Shown here piece after piece: positions 3 through 14,284 of a DNA stretch of 64,000 nt. A program made the position numbers and the translations under genes. The stretch is from positions 310,001-374,000 of the forward strand of contig JOEL01000002.1 of assembly GCA_000720995.1 (NCBI GenBank). The letters run 5' to 3'. The first letter of the stretch is position 1; the number at the start of each line of letters is the position of its first letter. This DNA comes from Streptomyces celluloflavus (lineage in GTDB: Bacteria; Actinomycetota; Actinomycetes; Streptomycetales; Streptomycetaceae). The notes under the pieces are model-generated. The model was given only the letters and a program-made list of their open reading frames with translations, was not told where the DNA came from and did not search any database.

Positions 3-3000
3 CGGGACGCGCCGCTCCAGACGCCCTTCGAGGACCTCGCCCGCGCCCACCCCGACGCCCCCGCGATCCGGTACGGCGGCCACCTCCTGACCTACGGCCA
101 GGCCGACCGGCGCGCCAACCAGCTCGCCCACTGGCTCCGCCGGCTGGGCGTGCAGCAGGGCGTCCTGGTCGGCCTGTGCACCGACCGCACACCCGAGCGG
201 GCCATCGGCGCCCTGGCGGTGCTCAAGGCCGGCGGCACCCTCCTGCCGCTGGACCCCGCCGATCCGCCGCAGCGCCTGGCGCAGCAGCTCGACGACGCCC
301 GGCCGCCACTGCTCCTCACCCACAAAACCGCGCGTTCCGTCCTGCCGCCCGACGACGCCGAGGTGCTGGACCTCGACGACCTCGGCCCGGCCCTCGACGA
401 GGAACCCGAGGACGCCCCGCCGGCCGGCACCCACGGCACCCACCCCGCCTGCCTCGGCCACACCGCGGGCACCACGGGCCGGCCCAAGGGCGTCCAGACC
501 ACCCACGCCGCGCTCCGCCACCTGCTGCTGGGGCTGCGCGACCACTTCGCGCTCGGCGCCCGGGACCGGGTGCTGCACGCCGCATCGTTCTCCACCACCA
601 CCGGGCTGCGCGAGGTGCTCTGGCCGCTGCTGAGCGGCGCCGAACTCGTCCTCGCCCCGGAGCCGGCGACCGCGGACCCCGGGCGGCTGGCCGCGGTGAT
701 CCGGGGAACGGGCGTGACCACCGTCGACCTCACCCCGCCCCGGCTCCAGCGCTTCCTCCACGAACCGGACGCGGCCCACTGCACCACCCTGCGGCTGGTG
801 CTCAGCGGCGGCGAACCGCTGCCCCCGGCCCTCCCCGCACGCCTCCGCGCCCGGACGGCGGCCGAACTGCACCACCTGTACGGGTCCCGCGAGACCGGCG
901 GGCCCGCCCTGGCCCGGCACTGCCGCCCGGACGACACCGCCGCCCCGGTGCCGGCCGGCACGCCCCTCGCCGGCGCCCGCGTCCTCGTCCTGGACGCGGC
1001 CCGGCGGCCCGTGCCCACCGGCGTATCCGGCGAGCTGTACATCGGCGGGCCCGCCCTCGCCCAGGGCTACCCGGACCGGCCCGACCTCACCGCCGAGCAC
1101 TTCACCGACCACCCCGCCGTCCCCGGCGAACGGCTCCACCGGACCGGCGACCGGGCCCGGCTGCGCCCCGACGGCGGCCTGGAGATCCTCGGCCGCGTCG
1201 GCGAGGAGGCGACACTGCGCGGCTTCCGGATACCCGTGGACCGTGTCGAGGCCGAACTGGCCGCCCACCCTTCCGTAGGCGAGGCCGTGGCCACCGTGAC
1301 CGCCCGGTCCGGCGCGGAGCGACTCACCGACTACGTCACTGCCTACGTCACCGCTGACGACAAAGGAGCCCCCGATCCGGCCGAACTGACCGCGCACGCC
1401 AGGGAACGCCTGCCGGAGTACATGGTTCCGTCCGTCGTCGTCCTGCCCGCGCTCCCGCTGACCTTCGACGGCCGCACCGACCAGGCCGCCCTGCCCGCCC
1501 CCGAGACCGCCGCCCCCGGCGACGGGCCGCGCTGCACCGAGCCCAGCGGCGACCTGGAGCGCGCCATCGCCGAATCCTGGCGGGAGCTGCTGGGCGCCCC
1601 GCGGATCGGCGCCCACGACAACTTCTTCGAACTGGGCGGCCACTCCCTGCTCCTGACCAAGCTCGCCGCCCAGCTCTCCGCCGCCCACGGCATCGACGTC
1701 CCGCTGCGCATGCTGTTCGAGAACCTCACCGTGGCGCGGATGGCGGCCTGGATCGACGAGCACCGGGGCGACGGCGCCGCCAAGGCCACGGCCATCCCAC
1801 TCCTCGGCCGCGATGGCGGACTGCCGCTCTCCTTCGCCCAGGAAGAGCTGTACCTGCACCAGCCGGTGCCCGCCCAGGAACCGTTCCACAACGTCCTGAC
1901 CGCGGTCACCCTCCACGGCCCGCTCGACGAGGCGGCCCTGCGCCACACCCTGGACACCGTCGTCCGGCGCCACGAGGCGCTGCGCACCCGCATCGCGGAG
2001 CGCTCCGGAACCCCGGTCCAGTTCGTCGGGGACGACGCGGCCTGGCCGCTGGCCGTCGTCGACCTGCGGGCCCACCAACCGGCCGCGCGGCAGCAGGAGT
2101 TGCACCGGATCGTCTCGGCGGAGGAGCGCCGGCCCTTCAGGCTCGCCGAGGAGAATTTGGTACGCGCCACCCTCGTCCGGCTCGCCGACGACGAGCACGT
2201 ACTGGTCCAGGTGATGCACCACCTCGTCACGGACAACTGGTCCTACGGAGTCCTCTTCGACGAGATGCGCGAGCTGTACCGGGCCCGTGTCCACGGCACC
2301 GGGGCCCGGCTCCCGGAGCTCGTGGCGCAGTTCGCCGATGTGGCCGCCTGGCAGCAGCAGCGGCTCGCCGACGGTGAGCTCGACGCGCACCTGGACCACT
2401 GGCGGGACCGGCTCGCCGGGCTGCCGCCCACCCTGCGCTTCGCCGCCCCCGGGCACCAGGAGGTCCGGCCCGCCACCGGCAGCACCGCCGGCTTCGTGAT
2501 CGGCGCCCGGCCCGCCACGGCCCTCGCGGACCTCGGCAGGCACGAGGGCGCGACCCTGTTCATGGTGCTGCTGGCGGCCTTCGGCATCCTGCTGTCCGCG
2601 TACTCCGGCAGCGACGACATCCCCGTCGACTTCCCGGTGGCCGGCCGCGAACGGCCCGAGACCGAGCACCTGATCGGCTACTTCGTCAACCACCTCGTGG
2701 TCCGCTCCGACCTCACCGGCAACCCGACGTTCCGCGACCTCGTCCGCCAGGTCAGGGAGCGGACCCTGAGCGCCTACACCCACCAGGACGCCCCGCTGTG
2801 GGCGCTGGACGGAGCCGTCCCCGAGGGCCACGACCCCTCGGGCATCTCCTTCAACCTGCTCAACGCCACCGTCCCGGCCCTCGAACTGGCCGGGCTCACC
2901 ACCACCCCGCTGCACCTCGACGTCGGCGACGACTACGTCTTCCCCGAGGTCGTGGCCACCTTCACCGCGGACGCCGTCGACCTCGCCCTGATCATGCGCG

Positions 3001-3215
3001 AGGAGGACGCCGGAACCCTGCGCGGTATGTGGCTGTACGACCTGAAGGCCGTCGACGCGCGCGCGGTGGCCGCGATGTCGAGGCGGTGGCCGCACCTCAT
3101 CGCGGCCGTCGCGGCCGTCGCGGCCGCCCCGGACCGCCCGGTCGGCGAACTGCGGCAACTCCTCCTGGCCCCCCTGCCCGCCGGCGACGATGCCACGACC
3201 GTGGAACGGGGCTGA
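3..3215 (+). CDS. Non-ribosomal peptide synthetase, A(degenerate)-PCP-C, 5'-truncated by the window edge
   Basis: The frame is open from base 3, so the start lies upstream. Domains in order: adenylation domain (about 3-1500), carrier protein (about 1540-1760, core LGGHSLL with the phosphopantetheine Ser near 1643), and condensation domain (about 1790-3210, active site HHLVTDNWS matching HHxxxDxxS near 2218). The A domain keeps a TTGRPKG phosphate loop and RTGD, but several core positions are wrong. The A4 aspartate is replaced (SFSTTT instead of SFDxxx), A5 reads YGSRE instead of YGPTE, and A10 reads FDGRTDQ, so the catalytic Lys of NGK is gone. The A domain is therefore probably inactive, while PCP and C look active. 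No A domain or thioesterase follows the C domain. The exporter gene starts 2 bases after the stop. What precedes base 3 is unknown, so the product cannot be named. Confidence 0.92.
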   Translation, partial: RDAPLQTPFEDLARAHPDAPAIRYGGHLLTYGQADRRANQLAHWLRRLGVQQGVLVGLCTDRTPERAIGALAVLKAGGTLLPLDPADPPQRLAQQLDDARPPLLLTHKTARSVLPPDDAEVLDLDDLGPALDEEPEDAPPAGTHGTHPACLGHTAGTTGRPKGVQTTHAALRHLLLGLRDHFALGARDRVLHAASFSTTTGLREVLWPLLSGAELVLAPEPATADPGRLAAVIRGTGVTTVDLTPPRLQRFLHEPDAAHCTTLRLVLSGGEPLPPALPARLRARTAAELHHLYGSRETGGPALARHCRPDDTAAPVPAGTPLAGARVLVLDAARRPVPTGVSGELYIGGPALAQGYPDRPDLTAEHFTDHPAVPGERLHRTGDRARLRPDGGLEILGRVGEEATLRGFRIPVDRVEAELAAHPSVGEAVATVTARSGAERLTDYVTAYVTADDKGAPDPAELTAHARERLPEYMVPSVVVLPALPLTFDGRTDQAALPAPETAAPGDGPRCTEPSGDLERAIAESWRELLGAPRIGAHDNFFELGGHSLLLTKLAAQLSAAHGIDVPLRMLFENLTVARMAAWIDEHRGDGAAKATAIPLLGRDGGLPLSFAQEELYLHQPVPAQEPFHNVLTAVTLHGPLDEAALRHTLDTVVRRHEALRTRIAERSGTPVQFVGDDAAWPLAVVDLRAHQPAARQQELHRIVSAEERRPFRLAEENLVRATLVRLADDEHVLVQVMHHLVTDNWSYGVLFDEMRELYRARVHGTGARLPELVAQFADVAAWQQQRLADGELDAHLDHWRDRLAGLPPTLRFAAPGHQEVRPATGSTAGFVIGARPATALADLGRHEGATLFMVLLAAFGILLSAYSGSDDIPVDFPVAGRERPETEHLIGYFVNHLVVRSDLTGNPTFRDLVRQVRERTLSAYTHQDAPLWALDGAVPEGHDPSGISFNLLNATVPALELAGLTTTPLHLDVGDDYVFPEVVATFTADAVDLALIMREEDAGTLRGMWLYDLKAVDARAVAAMSRRWPHLIAAVAAVAAAPDRPVGELRQLLLAPLPAGDDATTVERG

Positions 3216-3216
3216 T

Positions 3217-4884
3217 ATGGGGCTGTTCGGCTATCTGCTGCGGACCTCACGCCGCCCGTTCCTGCTCGCCCTGGCCGCCAGCGTCATCAGCGGCGCCGCG
3301 GGTGCCTCCTTCATCGCGCTGGTCAACACGGCGCTGGGCCGGGCGGGGCACGTCCCGGCCGCCGTGGTCTGGGCCTTCGCCGGCCTGTGCGTGGCCACCG
3401 TCGTGACCCGCTTCCTCGCCCAGAACCTCCTCTTCCGCCTCTCCCAGGGCTTCATTTACCGCCTGCGCCGCCGCCTGGTCGACGGCATCCTCGACACGCC
3501 CCTGCGCAGCGTCGAGAAGCTCGGCACCCCGCGGCTGTACTCCGCGCTGGCCGACGACGTGGTGGTGATCGCGGACGCCCTGCCCGGTCTGCCGATGGTG
3601 TGCTTCAGCGCCACCTTCGCGGTGGTGTGCGTGGTCTACCTGGCCGTGGTGTCGCCCGCCGTGGCCCTCACCTCGCTCCTCGCCCTGGGCGTCGCCGTCG
3701 GCGTCTACCGGATGTTCTCCGCCTACGGGATGCGCCACCTGGGCGCGGCCCGCGAGGAACAGGACCGGCTCTTCGAGCACTTCCGGGCCGTCACCGAAGG
3801 CACCAAGGAACTCAAGCTCGACCGCGGCCGCCGGGAGGCCCTGGCCGGCGCCGCGCTCGACGCCACCGCCACCACCTACCGCCGGCGCAGCGTCCTGGGC
3901 CTGTCGGTCTTCGAAGGGGCCGCCGGCAGCGGACAGGCGATCTTCTTCGCGCTCATCGGCGTCCTGCTCTTCGTCTTCCCGGCCGTCTTCGCCCTCCCCG
4001 CCAGGACGCTGACGGACAGCATCATGGTGCTGCTCTTCATGGTCTCCAGCCTCCAGGGCGTCCTGACCTGGCTGCCCGTCCTGGGGCGGGCGACCGTCGC
4101 ACTGCACAAGATCGAGGAACGGCTGGAGTACCTGGAGGGCGCCGGCCGGGAGAAGCGCCACGACCACCCGGCCGCCCCGGCCGACTGGCAGCAGATCGGC
4201 TTCCGCGGCGTCGCCCACGCCTACCCGGGCGCCGCGGGCGAGCAGTTCGTCCTGGGGCCCCTCGATTTCACCTTCCGCCGGGGCGAGGTCCTCTTCGTCG
4301 TCGGCGGCAACGGCAGCGGGAAGACCACCCTGGCCAAGCTGCTCACCGGCCTGTACCTGCCCGAGAAGGGCGCGGTCCGGCTCGACGACCGCGAGGTCAC
4401 CGACGACAACCGCGACGCCTACCGCGCACTGTTCGGCGCCGTGTTCTCGGACTTCTTCCTCTTCGAGAGCCTCGGCGGCCTGCCCGGCGCCGACCGGACG
4501 GCGAAGGCCGAGCACTACCTGCGGCGCCTCCAGCTCGACCACAAGGTCTCCATCGTGGACGACCGCTTCTCCACGACCGCCCTGTCCCAAGGACAGCGCA
4601 AACGGCTGGCGTTGCTGACCGCCTGCCTCGCGGACCGCTCCTGCTACCTCTTCGACGAGTGGGCCGCCGACCAGGACCCGGTGTTCAAGGAGTTCTTCTA
4701 CACCGAGCTCCTGGCGGAGCTGAAGGCGAGGAACAAGACGGTCGTGGTCATCAGCCACGACGACCGGTACTTCGCCGTGGCCGACCGGATCGTACGGCTC
4801 GACTACGGCCAGATCCGTGCGGACCGGCCCGGCGAGGACCGCCGGGACCGCACTCCCGAAGAGGAGAACAGCGGTGGACGGTAA
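3217..4884 (+). CDS. Cyclic-peptide-type ABC exporter (PvdE/SyrD-like), fused membrane and ATPase domains
   Basis: 555 residues from ATG 3217, chosen because GGAACGGG lies just upstream and the start follows the NRPS stop directly. The N-terminal half (about 1-310) is a multi-helix membrane domain; the C-terminal half (about 335-540) is an ABC ATPase with Walker A GGNGSGKTT, signature LSQGQRKRLAL, and a Walker B region YLFDEWAADQDP in which Glu is present after the Asp. The single-chain TMD-NBD layout and the short LSQGQ signature match the cyclic-peptide transporter family of siderophore and syringomycin clusters, which move peptide intermediates or products across the cytoplasmic membrane. 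It overlaps the next gene by 11 bases, so it belongs to the same operon. Its cargo is inferred to be the peptide of this cluster. Confidence 0.88.
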   Translation: MGLFGYLLRTSRRPFLLALAASVISGAAGASFIALVNTALGRAGHVPAAVVWAFAGLCVATVVTRFLAQNLLFRLSQGFIYRLRRRLVDGILDTPLRSVEKLGTPRLYSALADDVVVIADALPGLPMVCFSATFAVVCVVYLAVVSPAVALTSLLALGVAVGVYRMFSAYGMRHLGAAREEQDRLFEHFRAVTEGTKELKLDRGRREALAGAALDATATTYRRRSVLGLSVFEGAAGSGQAIFFALIGVLLFVFPAVFALPARTLTDSIMVLLFMVSSLQGVLTWLPVLGRATVALHKIEERLEYLEGAGREKRHDHPAAPADWQQIGFRGVAHAYPGAAGEQFVLGPLDFTFRRGEVLFVVGGNGSGKTTLAKLLTGLYLPEKGAVRLDDREVTDDNRDAYRALFGAVFSDFFLFESLGGLPGADRTAKAEHYLRRLQLDHKVSIVDDRFSTTALSQGQRKRLALLTACLADRSCYLFDEWAADQDPVFKEFFYTELLAELKARNKTVVVISHDDRYFAVADRIVRLDYGQIRADRPGEDRRDRTPEEENSGGR

Positions 4885-5629
4885 GTGGTTGACCGGACCT
4901 GACGCCGGCCGGGACGCCGGAGCGCGGCTCTTCTGCCTGCCCTACGCGGGCGGGGGAGCGGCCGCCTACCGCGACTGGCCCGGTCTCTTCCCCGGCGGCA
5001 TCCAGGTGTGCCCGGTGGAACTCCCCGGCCGTGGACGCCGACTGGTGGAAACCCCGTACAGCCGCCTGCGGCCCCTGGTCGCGGCCCTCGCGGACGCCCT
5101 GCGACCGGCCATGGACCGCCCCTACGCGCTGTTCGGGCACAGCATGGGCGCACTCGTCGCCTACGAGCTGACCCGGGCCCTGCGCGACCGCGGGCTCCCC
5201 CAGCCGTCGCACCTGATCGTCTCCGGCGCGGCCGCCCCCGGCACCCGCCGCGCCCGCCCGGAGATGCACAACGCCACCGACGACGAGATGCGCGACGAAC
5301 TGCGGGTCCTGAACGGCACCCCCGGGGAACTCCTGGAGAACGCCGAACTCATGGAACTGATGCTGCCCACGCTGCGCGCCGACTTCTCCGTACTGGAGAC
5401 CTACGTGTACCGGGAGGCACCGCCGCTCGACGTCCCGCTCACCGTCCTGGGGGGAACGGCCGACCCCTCCGTCGAGATCTCCGCACTCCAGGGCTGGCGC
5501 GACCGGACCACCGCCGGCTCCCGGCTCCGGCTCATCGCCGGCGACCACTTCTTCCTGCACTCCGCCGCGGCCGAGGTCATCGCGGCCGTACGGGACGCCC
5601 TCGCCGCCGAACCGTCCACCACACCCTGA
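4874..5629 (+). CDS. Type II thioesterase (alpha/beta hydrolase) of the NRPS cluster
   Basis: 251 residues from GTG 4874, which overlaps the exporter stop and has AGGAGA about 8 bases upstream. The opening LFCLPYAGGGAAAYRDW is the standard type II thioesterase start. The nucleophile elbow is GHSMG, the acid Asp lies in GGTADPSV and the His in GDHFFLHS, so the catalytic triad is complete. Free-standing enzymes of this family clear misloaded acyl groups from carrier-protein arms of NRPS and PKS lines. A type I releasing role is less likely because it is not fused to a synthetase, although no release domain is visible in the window. Confidence 0.92.
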   Translation: MDGKWLTGPDAGRDAGARLFCLPYAGGGAAAYRDWPGLFPGGIQVCPVELPGRGRRLVETPYSRLRPLVAALADALRPAMDRPYALFGHSMGALVAYELTRALRDRGLPQPSHLIVSGAAAPGTRRARPEMHNATDDEMRDELRVLNGTPGELLENAELMELMLPTLRADFSVLETYVYREAPPLDVPLTVLGGTADPSVEISALQGWRDRTTAGSRLRLIAGDHFFLHSAAAEVIAAVRDALAAEPSTTP

Positions 5630-5640
5630 CGCCGCCGCCC

Positions 5641-5660
5641 CGCGGCACCACCGTGCCGCG
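5641..5660 (+). terminator. Small perfect hairpin between thioesterase and second NRPS gene
   Basis: CGCGGCAC and GTGCCGCG form an 8-bp stem around a CACC loop in the 71-base gap. There is no T-run. It may partly separate expression of the two halves of the operon or stabilise mRNA ends; the following gene has its own strong AAGGAGAGG site. Confidence 0.4.
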
Positions 5661-5700
5661 CCCGCCCGTCCCCGCCGCGCTTCTTCGTAAGGAGAGGTCC

Positions 5701-8700
5701 ATGACGCTGTCCGACCCGATGGCCCGCACACCGGAGCCAGGGGCCGCCGAACCCTTCGCGCTGATCGGCCGCGCCGACCGCGCCCGCCTGCCGGCCGGTG
5801 TCGTGGACGCGTATCCGCTCCACCGCGCCCGCACCGCGCCGCTCGCGGAACCGCCGCTCTCCGGCGACGGGGCACAGGTCACCGCCCGGCGCCTCACCGG
5901 CCGTCGGCCGCTGTCCGCCGGGGAGTTCACGGCCGGGGCCGAGGCCGTCGTCCACGCACACGAACTGCTGCGCACCTCCCTCGACCCGGCCGGCGCCTCC
6001 GGTCCGCTGCTGCGGGTGCACGACCGGGCCCGGCCGCCCCTGGAACTGCACGACCACCGCACCCTGGACCCGGCCACCCGCCGGACGCGGCTCGCCGCGC
6101 TCGCCGACGCCGAGCGCGGCACGCCCTTCGACGCCGGCGCCGCGCCCCTGCTGCGGATCGACGTCGTCCTGGAGCCGGACGACACCTGGGTGCTGCTGCT
6201 GACCCTGCACCGTGTGCTGGCGGCGGACCTCAGCGCGGACGCGGTCCTCACCGAACTGGCGGACGCCTGCGAACGGGCCCGCGACGGCGCCGACCCGGCC
6301 GCGCACCGGCCGGCGGTGCGGCACGCGCCGTGCGCGGCCGCCGAGCGGGCGGGCCGCCTCGACCGGGCCGGGCGCGCCCACTGGCGCCGGACCGCCGAAC
6401 GCACCGCGCCGTTCGTCCTGCCCAGGGCCTGGCGGGAGGACGACGGCGCACCGGAGCGGGAGCCCGCCGGGGAGCCGGCACCGGGCGGCGTCCCGGCCGT
6501 CACGGAACGGGCCGTGCCCTTCCACGACCTGCGCGCGGGACTCGACGCCCTGGCCGCCGCCGCCGAAGTCCCGCTGGGCACCGTGCTGTTGGCGGCCCAC
6601 CTGAAGGTGCTGGGCACCCTCACGGCGGAGAGGTCCTTCCGCTCGGACGTCGTGGCACGGGCCGACTGGGCCCCGGACGGCGAGCGCGACACCTGCGACG
6701 CCCGGCTGCACCGCGTGGCGCTGCCCTTCGCGTCGCCGGCCGCCGCCCCGACCTGGCGCGGGCTCGTCGCGCGGGTACGGGCGGAGGAGACGCTGGGCTG
6801 GCGCCACCGGTACGCCCCGCGCGGCACCGCCCAGGACGGCGGGGCCGGGGCCGAGCGGTTCGCCGCGGTGGTGTACGAGGCCGGGCGGTGGCGGACGGCG
6901 CCCGCGGGCGGCGGCGCCGACACGAGCACCGGCCCGGACGGCGGCGGACCGGCCGACGTCCCGCTGCCCGGCCGGGACGCCGCCGTCCACGGCGACGGCT
7001 ACGGTCTGCACGTCCTGGCCGACGCGGGCCACCTGCGGCTGCGCACCGCGGCCGTGGCGGTGCCCCCGGAGCGGGCCGAGCGCCTCGTCCACATGTACCG
7101 GGCCGTCCTGGAATCCATGGCGGCCGGCCCCGACGGCGACGCGCTCCGCGCCCATCTCGCCCCGGACGAGCGGAAGGCGGTGCTCGGTGCGTGGAGCTCC
7201 GGACCGTCCGCCGACCACGGCACCACCACCGTCGTCGGCCTCCTCCAGGAGCGGGCCGCGGCCGTTCCCGACGCCGTGGCGGTCCGCGTGGGCGAACAGA
7301 CCCTGACCTACCGGGAGCTGGACGAGCGCGCCAACCGGATCGCCCACCACCTGCTCGCGCGGGGAGCCGGGCCCGACACCCTCGTCGGCGTCAGCCTGCG
7401 GCGCACCCCGCACCTGCTGCCCGCACTGATCGGCGTGTGGCGGGCCGGTGCGGGATACCTGCCGCTCGACCCGGACCTCCCGGCCGAGCGGATCCGCGGG
7501 ATGCTCGACACCACCGGCCACCCCCCGGTGATCAGCACCGGGGACCGCCGGTCCGTTCTCGGCCCCCTCCACCAGGGCGCCTTCGTCATGCTGGACGAGG
7601 ACCGGGAGGCCATCGAGGCCCGCCCGGCGACGCCCACCGGCATCCGCGTCCACCCCGACCACCTCGCGTACGTCATCCACACCTCCGGCTCGACCGGTAC
7701 GCCCAAGGGCGTGCTGATCCGGCACGGCGGCCTGGTCAACTACCTGCTGTGGACGCTGGACGCCTACGTGGCCCAGGGCACCGGTGGCGCGCCCGTCTTC
7801 TCCTCCCTCTCCTTCGACCTGGGCATCCCCAACCTCTTCGCGCCGCTGCTCGCGGGCCGGGAGGTGCATCTGCTGCCCGAGCCGTTCGAGCCCGCGGACC
7901 TGGGCCGCCATCTCGCCGCCGGGGCGCCGTACAGCTTCATCAAGATGACCCCCGGCCACCTGGACCTGCTCACCCACCAGCTCGGCGCCGACCAGGTCCG
8001 CGGCCTCGCGGGCATCGTGATCGCCGCCGGGGACTCCTTCCCCGCGGCCCTGGCGGAGCGCTGGCACACCCTGGCGGGTCCCGGCGGCACCCGCGTCGCC
8101 ACCGAATACGGCCCGACCGAGATCACCATCGGCAACTCCGGGCAGCAGGTCCTCGCCACCCCCACGACGGAGCTGGTCCCGCTCGGCGCCCCGATACCCA
8201 ACACCACCATGTACGTCCTGACCGACCGTCTGGAGCCGGTGCCGGTCGGCGTCCCCGGGGAGGTCTTCGTCGGCGGCGCCGGAGTGGCCCGCGGCTATCT
8301 CGGCCGCCCCGCGCTGACCGCCGAGCGCTTCGTCCCCGATCCCTACGGGCCCGCCGGGGCACGGCTCTACCGCACCGGCGACCTGGCCCGGTGGCTGCCC
8401 GACGGGACCCTCGACTTCCTCGGCCGTATCGACAACCAGGTCAAGATCCGGGGCTACCGCGTCGAACTGGGCGAGGTCGAGGCGCGGTTGCGGCTGCACC
8501 CGGACGTCCGGGACGCCGTCGTCGTCGCCCGGGAACCGAGCCCCGGGAACGTACGCCTGGTCGCCTACACCGTGCCGGCCGGCCGGCCGGCACCGGACGC
8601 CGCCGTGCTCCGCGCCCACCTCGCCGACGCCCTGCCCGACTACATGGTCCCGGCGGACTTCGCCGCGGTCGACCGGATACCGCTGACCGCCAACGGCAAG

Positions 8701-8730
8701 GTCGACACCCGTGCCCTGCCGGCCCCTTGA
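5701..8730 (+). CDS. Stand-alone NRPS protein: degenerate C domain plus intact A domain, no carrier protein
   Basis: 1009 residues from ATG 5701, with AAGGAGAGG upstream. Residues about 20-490 look like a condensation domain (opening VDAYPLHRA), but the active-site motif reads HRVLAADLS, so the second His of HHxxxD is lost and the spacing is shifted; it is probably structural only. Residues about 503-1009 are a complete adenylation domain: AYVIHTSGSTGTPKGV, SFDLGIPNL, EYGPTE, YRTGDLARW, GRIDNQVKIRGYRVE and a final NGKVDTRAL with the catalytic Lys. Hand alignment to GrsA gives the code DLPKIAEIGK, closest to the Asp/Asn-type pattern DLTKxGExGK. The protein stops right after A10, so it must charge a carrier elsewhere; the partner with the broken A domain three genes upstream is the obvious candidate. 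Substrate assignment is tentative. Confidence 0.9.
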   Translation: MTLSDPMARTPEPGAAEPFALIGRADRARLPAGVVDAYPLHRARTAPLAEPPLSGDGAQVTARRLTGRRPLSAGEFTAGAEAVVHAHELLRTSLDPAGASGPLLRVHDRARPPLELHDHRTLDPATRRTRLAALADAERGTPFDAGAAPLLRIDVVLEPDDTWVLLLTLHRVLAADLSADAVLTELADACERARDGADPAAHRPAVRHAPCAAAERAGRLDRAGRAHWRRTAERTAPFVLPRAWREDDGAPEREPAGEPAPGGVPAVTERAVPFHDLRAGLDALAAAAEVPLGTVLLAAHLKVLGTLTAERSFRSDVVARADWAPDGERDTCDARLHRVALPFASPAAAPTWRGLVARVRAEETLGWRHRYAPRGTAQDGGAGAERFAAVVYEAGRWRTAPAGGGADTSTGPDGGGPADVPLPGRDAAVHGDGYGLHVLADAGHLRLRTAAVAVPPERAERLVHMYRAVLESMAAGPDGDALRAHLAPDERKAVLGAWSSGPSADHGTTTVVGLLQERAAAVPDAVAVRVGEQTLTYRELDERANRIAHHLLARGAGPDTLVGVSLRRTPHLLPALIGVWRAGAGYLPLDPDLPAERIRGMLDTTGHPPVISTGDRRSVLGPLHQGAFVMLDEDREAIEARPATPTGIRVHPDHLAYVIHTSGSTGTPKGVLIRHGGLVNYLLWTLDAYVAQGTGGAPVFSSLSFDLGIPNLFAPLLAGREVHLLPEPFEPADLGRHLAAGAPYSFIKMTPGHLDLLTHQLGADQVRGLAGIVIAAGDSFPAALAERWHTLAGPGGTRVATEYGPTEITIGNSGQQVLATPTTELVPLGAPIPNTTMYVLTDRLEPVPVGVPGEVFVGGAGVARGYLGRPALTAERFVPDPYGPAGARLYRTGDLARWLPDGTLDFLGRIDNQVKIRGYRVELGEVEARLRLHPDVRDAVVVAREPSPGNVRLVAYTVPAGRPAPDAAVLRAHLADALPDYMVPADFAAVDRIPLTANGKVDTRALPAP

Positions 8731-8775
8731 GAGAAACCCGAGGCATCCCTCGGACACCCCCTGAAAGGACACGCC

Positions 8776-9771
8776 ATGGCTACTGAACACCGCGCCGGCT
8801 TCCTGCCGGCGGACGCCGACGCCTACCGCCTGCGGCTGACCGGGGCCGAGCGCGACGAGGTCGCCGCGCTGGCCCGGCGGCTGGCCGGCACCGCGCCCGC
8901 CCTGGTCGACGACCCGGGCTGGCTGGCTACCGCCCGGCGGCTCGGCAACCGCCTGCCGGCCCGCCTGCTGGACACCGTCCGCGCCTTCCGGCACGACCCC
9001 GGCAAGGGCGGGGTCCTCCTGGTGTCGGGCCTGCCCCTCCACGAGGACGCGCTGCCCGAAACCCCGGGCGGCGCCGGGTCGGTGGAGCGCGCCGCCACCC
9101 TCCCCGCCGCCACCGCCGTACTGATCGGCCTGCAACTCGGCGAGATCGTCGCCTACCGCCAGGAGAAGTCCGGCGCCCTGGTGCAGAACGTCGTCCCGGT
9201 GCGGGGCCTGGAGGCGTCCCAGAGCAACGCCGGCTCGGTGCCGCTGGAGTTCCACATCGAAAACGCCTTCCACCCGTACCGCCCGGACTTCGTCGGCCTG
9301 AACTGCCTGCGGCAGGCGGTCGGGCAGAAGGCGGGGACGCTGGTCTCCTCCATCCGCCGGGCCCTGCCGGTGATCGAGGAGAGCGACCGCCGGGTGCTGC
9401 ACCAGGCGCGCTTCGTCACCGCCCCGCCGCCCTCGTTCCGCTCCGGCGGCAGCACCGAGGCGCACCCCGTCCTCGACGGCAGCCCCGACGACCCCAACAT
9501 CCGGGTCGACTTCAACGCCACGAGCGCGCTGGACGACGAGGCGAAGCAGGCCCTGGAGCGGCTGCGGGTGATCATGATGGACCTCTCCACGGCGGTGGAA
9601 CTGAGCCCGGGTGAGCTGGTGTTCGTCGACAACCGCGTGGTGTTGCACGGCCGGGCCCCCTTCACGCCCCGCTACGACGGCCGGGACCGCTGGCTCCAGC
9701 GGGTCTTCGTCCACCTCGACAACCGCCGCACCCGCGTCCACCGCACGGACAACGGCTCGGTCATGGGGTGA
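8776..9771 (+). CDS. Fe(II)/2-oxoglutarate-dependent amino-acid beta-hydroxylase (VioC/AsnO/clavaminate synthase-like)
   Basis: 331 residues from ATG 8776, with GAAAGGA upstream. Length and layout fit the clavaminate-synthase-like family. The metal ligands are visible: an HxE motif in FHIENAFHPYRPDFVGL (the Glu form used by VioC and AsnO rather than HxD), and a distal His with a 2-oxoglutarate-binding Arg in NRVVLHGRAPFTPRYDGRDRW. VioC acts on free arginine and AsnO on free asparagine before NRPS loading. With an Asp/Asn-like A-domain code next door, hydroxylation of a free Asn-type residue is a reasonable but unproven guess. The gene lies 45 bases after the NRPS in the same operon, with a small hairpin (8738-8753) in the gap. 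Confidence 0.85.
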   Translation: MATEHRAGFLPADADAYRLRLTGAERDEVAALARRLAGTAPALVDDPGWLATARRLGNRLPARLLDTVRAFRHDPGKGGVLLVSGLPLHEDALPETPGGAGSVERAATLPAATAVLIGLQLGEIVAYRQEKSGALVQNVVPVRGLEASQSNAGSVPLEFHIENAFHPYRPDFVGLNCLRQAVGQKAGTLVSSIRRALPVIEESDRRVLHQARFVTAPPPSFRSGGSTEAHPVLDGSPDDPNIRVDFNATSALDDEAKQALERLRVIMMDLSTAVELSPGELVFVDNRVVLHGRAPFTPRYDGRDRWLQRVFVHLDNRRTRVHRTDNGSVMG

Positions 9772-9862
9772 GCGGCGGCCCCGTGCGCACCACCTCGGAC
9801 CGACCCCGTCGCGCACCCCCGCACATACGCCACCACGGAAATCCGACAGAAAGGCAGCGGCC

Positions 9863-12301
9863 GTGCCCGGCACCACGCATGACCCCCTGCGGACCGGACG
9901 ACGCACCCGCCGCACCGGGCGGATGCTCGGCGCCCACCTCACCGCGATCCTGCTGACCGTCCTGCCCGGCGCCTCCGGTGCCGTGGCGGACGCCGGGCAG
10001 AGCACCGGCACGCCCAGGGCGACGCTCCGCTACACCGAGAGCGGCGTCCCGCACATCCTCGCCCGGAACTTCACGGACCTGGGCTACGGATACGGCTACG
10101 CGGTCGCCAAGGACAACATCTGCGTACTGGCCGACAACTTCCTCAGCGTGGGCGCCGAGCGCTCCCGGTACTTCGGTCCCGACGGCGCGGCCAACACCAC
10201 CCTCACCTCGGCGAGCGACAACCTCACCAGCGATCTGCACTTCCAGCGGATCAACGACTCCGGTGCGGTGGAGCGGCTGGCCGGCCGGCCCGCCCCCCAG
10301 GGCCCGCGCCAGGAGATGCGCGACATCGTCACCGGCTATGCCCAGGGCTACAACCGCTACCTCGCGCGGACCGGCCGCGACGGCATCACCGACCCCGCCT
10401 GCCACGGCGCCGCGTGGGTCCGGCCGATCACCGGGACCGACGTCTACCGGCTCTTTTACGCGCTGATGAACTGGACCGGCCAGGGCGCCCTCGCCGACGG
10501 CATCGTCGGCGCCGAGCCCACTCCCGGAGCCGCGCCGGCCCCGGCCGACACCCGGACCGCGGACCGCATCAAGGCCGGGCTCGACCGCACCCTGCGCGCG
10601 GACGGCAAGGGCAGCAACGGCATCGCCGTCGGCTCGGACGGCGCGGCCGGCAGCCACAGCGTCCTGCTCGGCAACCCGCACTTCCCCTGGCGCGGCGCCG
10701 GCCGCTTCTGGCAGGTGCAGCTGACCGTGCCCGGCAAGCTCGATGTCTCCGGCGCCGGGCTGCTCGGCACCCCGTTCGTCCAGAAGGGCTTCAACGACCA
10801 GGTCGCCTGGACGCACACCCTGGCCACGCCCCGGACCTTCGGCCTGTACGAGGTCCACCTGGTACCCGGCGACCCGACCAGCTATCTCGTGGACGGCGTC
10901 AAGGAGAAGATGACCCCGCGGACGGTGCGGGTGCGGGCCGAACAGCCCGACGGCTCCCTCACCGAGGTCCGGCGGACGCTGTACGAGACCCGCTACGGCC
11001 CCATGATCAACCGCGCGGTGGGCGTCGGCCTGCCGTGGAACGCCGCGACCGGCTACGCCCTGCGCGACGCCAACGACACCAACCTGCGCGGGCTCAACAC
11101 CTGGTTCGGCTTCGCCACCGCGCGCAGCACCGCCGACATCGAGAGGTCGCTGTCCGCCACCCAGGGCGCGCCGTGGATCAACACCATGGCGACGGACCGC
11201 GCGGGCCACGCCTTCTACGGCGACATCCAGGTCGTCCCGCACGTCACCGACGCGCAGGCGGAGTCCTGCGGCACCCCGCTCGGCAAGGAACTCTTCCCCA
11301 AGACCGGCCTGCCCGTCCTGGACGGGTCGAAGTCGTCCTGCGCCTGGGGCTCGGATCCCGACTCGGTGGAGCCCGGACTGTTCTCGCCGAAGCGGCTGCC
11401 GTCGCTGACGCGCCAGGACTACGTGCTCAACTCCAACGACAGTCCCTGGCTGGCCAATCCGCACGCACCGCTCACCGGCTACCCGCGGATCGTCGGCGAC
11501 GTCGGCACCCCGCGGTCGGCCCGCACCCGCGAGTCGCTGGCCACCGTCGAGGAGACCCTCCAGGGCAAGGGCTTCACCAAGGAGTCCATGCAGCGCATGC
11601 TCTTCACCGACCGCAGCCGGACGGCCGTGCTCGCGGCGGCCGACACCGCCACGATGTGCGGGGCCTTCCCCGACGGCAAGGCCCCGTCCGGCAACGGGCC
11701 GGTCGATGTCGGCCGGGCGTGCCGGGCGCTGGCCGACTGGGACCACACCTACTCCCTCACCAGCCGCGGCTCGCTGCTCTTCGAGCGCTTCGTGCTCAAA
11801 CTGGCCACCGTGCCCGGCGGGCTGTGGAACGTCCCGTTCGACCCGGCCGACCCGGTCGGCACCCCGAACTCGCTGAAGACCACGAGCCCCGACGTCCAAC
11901 GCGCCTTCGGTGACGCGGCGGCCGAACTGCACGCCGCGGGCATCCCGCTCGACGCCGCGCTGGGCGACCACCAGTACGTCGTCCGCGGCACGGACCGCAT
12001 CCCGATGCACGGCGCCCCGGAAGCCCTGGGCGTGCTCGATCTGATCACCCCCGTCTGGGACCCCGGGCGCGGCAACGTCGATGTCCGCACCGGCTCCAGC
12101 TACCTCCAGGTCGTCTCCTTCACCGACGCCCCCTGCCCCGACGTCTCGACGCTGGTGACCACCTCACAGTCCGCCGACCCGGGCTCCCCGTACTACGCGG
12201 ACCAGACGAAGCTCTACTCGTCCGGTGAGTGGCTCCCCGGCCGCTTCTGCGAGAAGGACATCCTGGCCTCCCCCGACCTGGAGGTCACCGAGCTCTCGTG
12301 A
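9863..12301 (+). CDS. Secreted penicillin-acylase-family Ntn hydrolase (PvdQ/aculeacin acylase-like)
   Basis: 812 residues from GTG 9863, which has an AAAGGCAG site upstream and opens with an Arg-rich stretch then a hydrophobic core (AHLTAILLTVLPGASGAVADA), that is, a signal peptide. The mature part starts with the alpha-subunit pattern (RATLRYTESGVPHILARNF and GYGYAVAKDNICVLADNF). A spacer of about 60 residues precedes GSNGIAVGSDG, where autocatalytic cleavage should expose the Ser nucleophile of the beta subunit; LLGNPHFPW follows as in acyl-homoserine-lactone and aculeacin acylases. Such enzymes remove acyl chains from lipopeptides and siderophore precursors outside the cytoplasm. Gene order suggests that it matures or detoxifies the peptide made and exported by this operon. 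A stand-alone quorum-quenching acylase is the main alternative. Confidence 0.87.
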   Translation: MPGTTHDPLRTGRRTRRTGRMLGAHLTAILLTVLPGASGAVADAGQSTGTPRATLRYTESGVPHILARNFTDLGYGYGYAVAKDNICVLADNFLSVGAERSRYFGPDGAANTTLTSASDNLTSDLHFQRINDSGAVERLAGRPAPQGPRQEMRDIVTGYAQGYNRYLARTGRDGITDPACHGAAWVRPITGTDVYRLFYALMNWTGQGALADGIVGAEPTPGAAPAPADTRTADRIKAGLDRTLRADGKGSNGIAVGSDGAAGSHSVLLGNPHFPWRGAGRFWQVQLTVPGKLDVSGAGLLGTPFVQKGFNDQVAWTHTLATPRTFGLYEVHLVPGDPTSYLVDGVKEKMTPRTVRVRAEQPDGSLTEVRRTLYETRYGPMINRAVGVGLPWNAATGYALRDANDTNLRGLNTWFGFATARSTADIERSLSATQGAPWINTMATDRAGHAFYGDIQVVPHVTDAQAESCGTPLGKELFPKTGLPVLDGSKSSCAWGSDPDSVEPGLFSPKRLPSLTRQDYVLNSNDSPWLANPHAPLTGYPRIVGDVGTPRSARTRESLATVEETLQGKGFTKESMQRMLFTDRSRTAVLAAADTATMCGAFPDGKAPSGNGPVDVGRACRALADWDHTYSLTSRGSLLFERFVLKLATVPGGLWNVPFDPADPVGTPNSLKTTSPDVQRAFGDAAAELHAAGIPLDAALGDHQYVVRGTDRIPMHGAPEALGVLDLITPVWDPGRGNVDVRTGSSYLQVVSFTDAPCPDVSTLVTTSQSADPGSPYYADQTKLYSSGEWLPGRFCEKDILASPDLEVTELS

Positions 12302-12310
12302 GCGGCGGCG

Positions 12311-12643: not shown

Positions 12644-14284
12644 TTACGAGGCTTCCCTGCGCGGCGCCGCCGAGCGGCGGGACGCCGTACGGTCGCCGTT
12701 GCCCGAACGGGCGGTCCCGCGCTCGCCGTTGGCCGAGCGGGAGCCCGAACCCGTGCCGGTGCGCTCGCCGTTCGCCGAGCGGCGCGCCTGGGCCGGGCGG
12801 CTGCGGCGGCCGCGGGACGACGACGCGCTGCGCTTGGGGCGCTCGACGACGGGTGCCGCGATGGTGACGGGGATACCGGAGGGGGCCTGGGCGCCGGTGA
12901 TGCGGGTGAGTTCGGCGTCACCGGAGCGGACCTGCGCGGTCTGCGGGGTGATCCCGGCGGTGGCCATCAGCCGGGACATCTCGCGGCGCTGGTTGGGCAG
13001 CACCAGGGTCACGACGCTGCCGGACTCGCCGGCCCGCGCGGTGCGGCCGCCGCGGTGCAGGTAGTCCTTGTGGTCGGTCGGCGGATCGACGTTCACGACG
13101 AGGTCGAGGTTGTCGACGTGGATACCGCGGGCCGCGACATTGGTGGCCACCAGCACATTGACATGCCCGGTCTTGAACTGCGTGAGCGTGCGGTTGCGCT
13201 GCGGCTGGGACTTGCCGCCGTGCAGTGCGGCCGCCCGGACACCGCTGGCGAGCAGGTCCTTGGTGAGGCGGTCGACGGCGTGCTTGGTGTCCAGGAACAT
13301 GATCACCCGGCCGTCGCGGGCCGCGATCTCGACGGTCGTGGCGTGCTTGTCCGGACCCTGCACATGCAGGACGTGGTGCTCCATCGTGGTGACCGCGCCC
13401 GCCGACGGGTCGACGGAGTGCACCACCGGGTCGGAGAGGAACCGCCGGACCAGCTTGTCGACATTCCGGTCCAGCGTGGCCGAGAACAGCATCCGCTGGC
13501 CGTCCTCGCGCACCTGGTTGAGCAGCTCGGTGACCTGCGGCATGAAGCCCATGTCGGCCATCTGGTCGGCCTCGTCCAGGACGGTGATCGCCACCTCGTC
13601 CAGACGGCAGTCGCGGCGCTCGATGAGGTCCTTGAGCCGGCCCGGCGTGGCGACGACGACCTCGACGCCGCCGCGCAGCGCACTGGCCTGGCGGCCGATG
13701 GACATACCGCCGACGACGGTCGCCAGACGCAGGTGCAGCGCCTGGGCGTAGGGGGTGAGGGCGTCGGTGACCTGCTGGGCCAGTTCGCGGGTGGGGACCA
13801 GTACCAGGGCGAGCGGCTCACGCGGCTCGGCCCGCCGGCCGGCCGTACGGGCCAGCATCGCGAGGCCGAAGGCGAGCGTCTTGCCCGATCCGGTGCGGCC
13901 GCGGCCGAGGACGTCACGGCCCGCGAGGGAGTTCGGCAGCGTCGCGGCCTGGATGGGGAACGGCTCGGTCACGCCGAGGCGTGTCAGGGTGGCGAGCAGC
14001 GCGGCGGGCATGTCCAGCTCGTCGAAGGCCGCCACGGCGGGCAGTGCCGGGGTGGTGCTCACCGGCAGCGCGAACTCGCCCTGCGGGGCCGCGGCCCGCG
14101 GTCGGCGCGGTGCCTGGGAGCGGAAACGGCCGCCGCCGCCCCCGGAGCTGTTGCCACCGGAGCGGCTGCCGAAGCCACCGCCGCCGGAGCCGTTGCCGCC
14201 CGAGCGGCCGGCGAAGCCACCGGAGCGGTTGCCGGAGCCGCCGGAACGGGAGTTGCGGTCAAAAGAACGGGTGCTGCGGTTCAT
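12644..14284 (-). CDS. Cold-shock-type DEAD-box RNA helicase with Gly/Ser/Arg-rich N-terminus and basic C-terminus
   Basis: 546 residues from ATG 14284. The N-terminal 60 or so residues are Gly-Ser-Arg-Asn rich. The RecA-like core follows in order: motif I GRTGSGKT, Ia PTRELAQQ, Ib ATPGRL, II VLDEAD, III FSATLD, IV IMFLDT, V ARGIHVDN and VI HRGGRTARAG. The C-terminal ~80 residues are rich in Arg, Ser and Gly, which suits RNA binding. ATP-driven unwinding of structured RNA, for example during cold adaptation or ribosome assembly, is the expected role. A csp gene lies upstream on the same strand, 360 bases away. The GAGGAAGG site is good but is buried in a 9-bp hairpin (see 14291-14320), which suggests translational control. 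Confidence 0.95.
   Translation of the reverse strand: MNRSTRSFDRNSRSGGSGNRSGGFAGRSGGNGSGGGGFGSRSGGNSSGGGGGRFRSQAPRRPRAAAPQGEFALPVSTTPALPAVAAFDELDMPAALLATLTRLGVTEPFPIQAATLPNSLAGRDVLGRGRTGSGKTLAFGLAMLARTAGRRAEPREPLALVLVPTRELAQQVTDALTPYAQALHLRLATVVGGMSIGRQASALRGGVEVVVATPGRLKDLIERRDCRLDEVAITVLDEADQMADMGFMPQVTELLNQVREDGQRMLFSATLDRNVDKLVRRFLSDPVVHSVDPSAGAVTTMEHHVLHVQGPDKHATTVEIAARDGRVIMFLDTKHAVDRLTKDLLASGVRAAALHGGKSQPQRNRTLTQFKTGHVNVLVATNVAARGIHVDNLDLVVNVDPPTDHKDYLHRGGRTARAGESGSVVTLVLPNQRREMSRLMATAGITPQTAQVRSGDAELTRITGAQAPSGIPVTIAAPVVERPKRSASSSRGRRSRPAQARRSANGERTGTGSGSRSANGERGTARSGNGDRTASRRSAAPRREAS

Follow-up and report, generated by a model that had tools for sequence, protein, structure and literature searches.

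A rakicidin-type gene cluster of Streptomyces celluloflavus ends in a secreted PvdQ-family acylase with a possible role in self-protection or turnover

Introduction

What role does a secreted acylase play at the end of a nonribosomal peptide synthetase (NRPS) operon? This question is raised by a 64,000-nucleotide stretch of Streptomyces celluloflavus DNA (contig JOEL01000002.1, positions 310001-374000; hereafter the window), taken from an 8.68-Mb genome of Streptomyces type. A further 60 kb upstream was also analysed, giving a total of 124 kb of examined DNA in which negative coordinates denote bases 5' of window base 1. An earlier note on the window had described a PvdE/SyrD-like exporter and a signal-peptide-bearing PvdQ-family acylase, co-directional with NRPS and hydroxylase genes, and had proposed, by analogy with pyoverdine, that the peptide leaves the cell in an inactive acylated form to be activated by deacylation, or else that the acylase serves self-protection. 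Profile matches bore out this linkage of genes, and the lipoinitiation domain that the note had advised looking for upstream was found as a fatty acyl-AMP ligase (FAAL) with an acyl carrier protein (ACP) at the N-terminus of RakAB, whereas the pyoverdine-like activation was not supported.

Results

Gene content marks this region as the 3' portion of a rakicidin-type cluster, i.e. one for a cyclolipodepsipeptide containing 4-amido-2,4-pentadienoate (APD). A loading FAAL-ACP and polyketide synthase (PKS) precede the Ser module, RakD is followed by RakEF, RakG carries an N-methyltransferase, and RakH, RakN and the Asn oxygenase RakO are all present. Table 6 of PMC5073741 lists an identical gene set and order for Streptomyces sp. 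MWW064 (i.e. NBRC 110611), which makes rakicidin D: FabH-like, ACP, FabF-like and epimerase-like genes come first, then RakAB-RakO and finally an acylase. That table gives 1,013 residues for RakN, 331 for RakO and 809 for a 'penicillin amidase' of unknown function. DNA identity to MWW064 (record L038) was 88% over the ~14 kb compared, with amino acid identities of 79% for RakH, 87% for the ABC exporter, 86% for the thioesterase, 81% for RakN, 82% for RakO and 86% for the acylase. The system is a further member of an already described kind. A siderophore reading was unsupported, the gene set being rakicidin-type.

Collinearity with MWW064 ended at window base 12302, where the acylase ends, though both sequences continue, which makes the acylase the final gene of the common segment and indicates that the arrangement is not due to chance. 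Ratios of nonsynonymous to synonymous substitution between the two clusters were alike for the acylase (0.52), RakN (0.51) and RakO (0.53). A LuxR-type regulator is the next gene after the MWW064 amidase, and no match to it better than E = 0.05 was detected in the 124 kb. Literature phrase searches returned no paper for rakicidin with acylase and only PMC5073741 for rakicidin with penicillin amidase.

For the acylase, the open reading frame call at 9611 is too early; a GTG at 9863 is the likely start, having GAAAGG upstream and matching the ATG of MWW064. By eye, the N-terminus consists of a basic stretch, a hydrophobic stretch and then AVA followed by D. The protein matched structures of MacQ and PvdQ (5c9i at 1.7e-151; PvdQ at 1.3e-140). 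Against the NCBIfam PvdQ model it scored 632.5 bits, which is under the equivalog cut-off of 950. The active-site residues of PvdQ, Ser beta-1, His beta-23 and Asn beta-269, were kept in all 53 aligned acylases including that of the window, indicating that the catalytic residues are intact. Position beta-70 is Leu in the two acylases of rakicidin clusters, Val in 50 and Ile in one.

Five clusters containing both RakN and RakO were compared (i.e. the window, MWW064 and three from Micromonospora: L039 with L137, L040 and L060). The Micromonospora rakicidin A/B clusters have RakH, the ABC transporter, the type II thioesterase, RakN and RakO in the same order as the window. The gene after RakO encodes the acylase in two of the five, both from Streptomyces, and an MmpL-family protein in the three from Micromonospora; the published DSW705 cluster likewise has MmpL at this place (PMC5075396). 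L060 is Micromonospora chalcea DSM 43026, whose production of rakicidin A and B was confirmed by high-performance liquid chromatography-mass spectrometry (PMC12916061). Elsewhere in the genomes, PF01804 matches numbered two in M. chalcea, three in M. yasonensis and none in M. solifontis.

The same five clusters share an unusual last module. In every one, the adenylation (A) domain of RakH lacks both the pocket Asp and the catalytic Lys of motif A10, while the thiolation (T) and condensation (C) motifs of RakH are kept. RakN combines a C domain without HHxxxDG with an intact A domain and has no T domain; its A-domain pocket is nearly identical across all five and Asn-like, with the code DLPKIAEIGK read by hand for the window. 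As the RakH A domain is degenerate and that of RakN intact and Asn-like in all five clusters, the simplest reading of these motifs is that RakN probably loads the RakH T domain with Asn in trans. In the account of the MWW064 cluster by Komaki and colleagues, Asn condensation is given to RakH, the substrate of whose A domain was left unpredicted (PMC5073741). Two A domains were present in 13 of the 18 other RakEF-type stretches (see below), and in all 13 the second had intact A3, A4 and A5 motifs, with A10 matched by a strict pattern in six. Relatives of the RakN A domain also lie within ~3.5 kb of a RakO-like gene at five non-rakicidin loci (L041, L044, L058, L059 and L096).

The distribution of the acylase was surveyed in 295 Streptomyces genomes, 131 of which, including that of the window, had matches at E <= 1e-100. 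These relatives are ~42-51% identical, apart from one at 35% and a higher one in genome G292. Relatives of more than 54% identity lie within peptide biosynthetic clusters: the G292 acylase lies behind an NRPS and an MbtH-like gene and that of Actinoplanes utahensis (L159, 808 residues, 57% identical) behind an NRPS. The acylase of G521 (C21, L186-L187; 54% identical) is directly behind an ABC exporter; a RamC/LanC-type synthetase is found ~10 kb off, and the region also holds a fusion of AMP-ligase and aldehyde dehydrogenase. From its size of 808 residues and its context, L159 is probably the published AuAHLA. Another A. utahensis gene (L163-L164, C79:80008-102545), presumably that of aculeacin A acylase from its N-terminus, closes an operon that by eye contains NRPSs, two ABC exporters and iron-uptake-like genes. 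Among 15 neighbourhoods of Streptomyces relatives, only G292 had NRPS modules, while seven had a lone divergent acyl-ligase-like gene within ~300 bases of the acylase (L142, L144, L145, L146, L147, L149 and L150), a hint at fatty-acid salvage, and seven had neither.

A tree of 53 acylases was built by a quick method with SH-aLRT (Shimodaira-Hasegawa-like approximate likelihood ratio test) support only; L001 and L003 (other subfamilies in the window's own genome) and L181 (broken frame) were left out and L159 was added from L161. The two acylases of rakicidin clusters paired with a support of 100. A group of 12 rows (i.e. this pair, G521, G292, A. utahensis and seven Streptomyces rows) had a support of 82, at which a single clade of biosynthetic-cluster acylases is not established.

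RakEF was surveyed with a 341-residue probe, scoring five to seven candidates per genome so that counts are lower bounds. At least 18 further genomes matched, not counting the window's own genome and one repeat (three among 295 Streptomyces, two among 394 of the class and 13 more among 297 of the family). One stretch per cluster was examined, reaching from the RakEF end into one side of it; 16 stretches span 20 kb, one spans 18 kb and one 5.4 kb, and none of the 18 had an acylase match at 1e-5. Of these genomes, 17 carry PF01804 genes; five have one on the contig that bears RakEF, the nearest being 148 kb away. One cluster from outside the family (L122 in G446) has a 65% identical ABC exporter and a thioesterase beside its RakEF-type genes; RakN, RakO and the acylase were not found in the 20 kb of it examined. 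The ABC exporter as a probe of the 295 Streptomyces genomes was little informative, with G145 (39%) as the sole other match among the best four of ~108-244 candidates per genome.

Features of the cluster are collected in Table 1. All named genes of 3190-12301 are present, open and on the same strand, after the NRPS genes. The first AMP ligase of RakAB is closest to fatty acyl-AMP ligase models, scoring below the curated cut-offs. For one protein of the loading/PKS part (N2), the scan left aside the first 129 residues, and the ACP was identified by eye. The best NCBIfam relatives of RakO are GntD, clavaminate synthase and VioC, all below cut-off. Ten further genes scanned in window 12644-63908, the first being a DEAD-box helicase at 12644, look like ordinary metabolism; they include a flavin-dependent (FAD) oxidoreductase, an aldehyde dehydrogenase, an acyl-CoA dehydrogenase, an E1 dehydrogenase and two AMP-binding ligases.

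Table 1. Coordinates of the rakicidin-type cluster and its acylase, numbered from window base 1
Feature	Coordinates	Strand	Basis and remarks
FabH-like gene	-32689 to -31478	+	ACP_syn_III match
ACP gene, 79-residue class	after FabH-like gene	+	by eye
FabF-like ketosynthase gene	end -29938	+	by eye
Glyoxalase-fold, methylmalonyl-CoA-epimerase-like gene	-29848 to -29336	+	
RakAB	-29154 to -20389	+	FAAL-ACP-KS-AT-DH-ER-KR (Pfam); last ACP by eye
RakC	to -15542	+	KS-AT-KR (Pfam); ACP by eye
RakD	to -12189	+	C-A-T (Pfam); hand reading at the GrsA positions gives the Ser code DVWHFSLIDK
RakEF	to -6361	+	KS-AT-KR-DH-ACP (Pfam), an unusual KR-DH order
RakG	to -1670	+	C-A-MT-T (Pfam); A code Gly-like by hand reading
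RakH-like NRPS, C-terminal part	3..3215	+	Pfam; whole gene C-A*-T-C (A*, degenerate), likely start GTG ~-1494
RakH domains	degenerate A ~27-1463, T 1563-1754, second C 1821-3089	+	Pfam
ABC exporter (PvdE/SyrD-type family)	3190..4884	+	TIGR01194 cyclic peptide export, 431 bits, passing the cut-off of 286; ATG 3190, overlapping the RakH stop, usable as start instead of 3217
Type II thioesterase RakL	4874..5629	+	PF00975
RakN	5701..8730	+	degenerate C fused to intact A (~7243-8700), no T; Pfam (weak Condensation + AMP-binding)
RakO, Fe(II)/2-oxoglutarate oxygenase of TauD fold, probable Asn beta-hydroxylase	8776..9771	+	PF02668
Secreted PvdQ-family N-terminal-nucleophile acylase, 812 aa	9863..12301	+	PF01804, 1.5e-121; last gene collinear with MWW064
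Probable signal peptide of acylase	9863..9988	+	ends GAVA before D; read by eye
Acylase nucleophile codon, Ser251 (Ser beta-1 in PvdQ)	10613..10615	+	PvdQ beta-chain alignment; Gly250 precedes it at the self-cleavage site

Discussion

In the proposed pathway, the FAAL of RakAB would load a fatty acid, to be extended by RakAB and RakC through two PKS modules. RakD and RakEF would use Ser and malonate to form the pentadienoate unit, and RakG would add N-methyl-Gly. Asn would be activated by RakN, loaded onto RakH in trans and hydroxylated by RakO; RakH would add this last residue, with ring closure presumably falling to its terminal C domain. Editing by the thioesterase and export by the ABC transporter would be expected from their families. 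The secreted acylase would not be needed for maturation; most likely it would act extracellularly, cleaving acyl-amide bonds in the exported product or in shunt acyl-peptides. This explanation as a whole, i.e. a rakicidin-type cluster with RakN loading RakH in trans and a secreted acylase for self-protection or turnover, is put forward tentatively, as falling a little short of probable. Trans-loading by RakN, if true, would mean that the last residue might be altered by swapping one small protein.

For the acylase itself, a secreted hydrolase of self-protection or turnover is the best remaining reading, preferred but unproven, and we infer both its substrate and its purpose. It fits the slot that the acylase shares with the MmpL transporter, and it fits published suggestions for the acylase Tem25 (telomycin cluster; Fu 2015 as cited) and for GdnD, which according to PMC10587159 may act in detoxification or self-resistance. 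As the rakicidin acyl group is part of the ring, amide hydrolysis would open the ring and destroy the compound. Should the acylase indeed degrade rakicidin, studying it would help to show how producers withstand hypoxia-selective toxins, and its action would explain lost titres.

Several points weigh against such a function. Micromonospora producers do without self-protection in this form. The PF01804 genes elsewhere in M. chalcea and M. yasonensis might supply an acylase from outside the cluster. Rakicidin D is a weak antibiotic: it inhibits S. aureus only without oxygen, with a minimum inhibitory concentration of 4 ug/ml, and in air the bacterium tolerates up to 32 ug/ml; rakicidin A inhibits more strongly. 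The acyl amide of rakicidin is alpha-methylated and lies inside the ring, and is not an obvious PvdQ substrate. The presence of related acylases of 47-51% identity in many Streptomyces without such a cluster indicates that the family has other roles too.

One such role would be that of a passenger or general-purpose enzyme, which cleaves N-acyl-homoserine lactones (AHLs), lipopeptides of other microbes or beta-lactams and has no direct part in the pathway. This quorum-quenching or passenger role is a serious contender, almost as likely as self-protection or turnover. The family is widespread in Streptomyces, 14 of the 15 neighbourhoods lacked NRPS modules, the acylase was not found in any of the 18 other RakEF-type stretches, and the best characterised relative, the AuAHLA-like protein of A. 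utahensis (57%), hydrolyses AHLs and penicillins (PMC8388760). However, the acylase closes the block conserved with MWW064 and is constrained similarly to its neighbours, and its nearest relatives outside rakicidin clusters likewise terminate clusters for peptide biosynthesis (G292, A. utahensis and G521).

A more specific form of the preferred self-protection reading is rather doubtful as a whole: the slot after RakO would serve self-protection throughout, with an MmpL pump in Micromonospora and a rakicidin-destroying acylase in Streptomyces, and the last residue would have been switched to Asn through decay of the RakH A domain and transfer of its task to RakN. The acylase would then cut exported rakicidin at the amide between the acyl group and the pentadienoate. 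If true, this would amount to cluster-encoded hydrolytic resistance for APD cyclolipodepsipeptides.

Precursor supply, in which fatty acids released extracellularly by the acylase would serve the FAAL as starters, is improbable. Free fatty acids are indeed the substrates of FAALs, and the acyl-ligase-like genes next to related acylases in seven of 15 neighbourhoods hint at salvage, but fatty acids are already available inside the cell and the Micromonospora clusters have a FAAL-type loading PKS with no acylase at this place. Pyoverdine-like maturation, in which the acylase would strip the chain from an exported acyl-peptide to give the active compound, draws on the co-occurrence of FAAL lipoinitiation, a PvdE-type exporter and a secreted acylase of the PvdQ family within a single operon but is highly unlikely and for rakicidin largely refuted. 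In MWW064 the corresponding place is taken by an acylase of 86% identity, yet the rakicidin D of this strain still bears its aliphatic chain, with labelling at C18, C20 and C22 (PMC5073741). The acylase is missing from three Micromonospora clusters, of which that of M. chalcea belongs to a strain making rakicidin A and B with MmpL instead, though in M. chalcea and M. yasonensis an acylase might act from elsewhere in the genome. The acyl group is PKS-extended and bears the ring ester, so that its removal would destroy the skeleton. Identification of the operon thus allowed this proposal to be weighed on a product whose structure is known and not on a guess.

As in the pyoverdine system of PvdE and PvdQ in Pseudomonas, a member of the cyclic peptide export family is paired with an acylase of the PvdQ family; unlike there, rakicidin keeps its acyl chain and its pathway is not a siderophore pathway. 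Telomycin, the product of a Streptomyces cluster, is found without an acyl chain. Compared by its description in PMC10587159, the telomycin cluster resembles the window in being a lipopeptide cluster with its own PvdQ-like acylase. In A. utahensis, AuAHLA and AuAAC are secreted acylases of the same family, each inside an NRPS cluster, as already published in PMC8388760; these clusters are not rakicidin-like, and the enzymes were assayed there on AHLs, penicillins and compounds of the echinocandin type, not on rakicidin.

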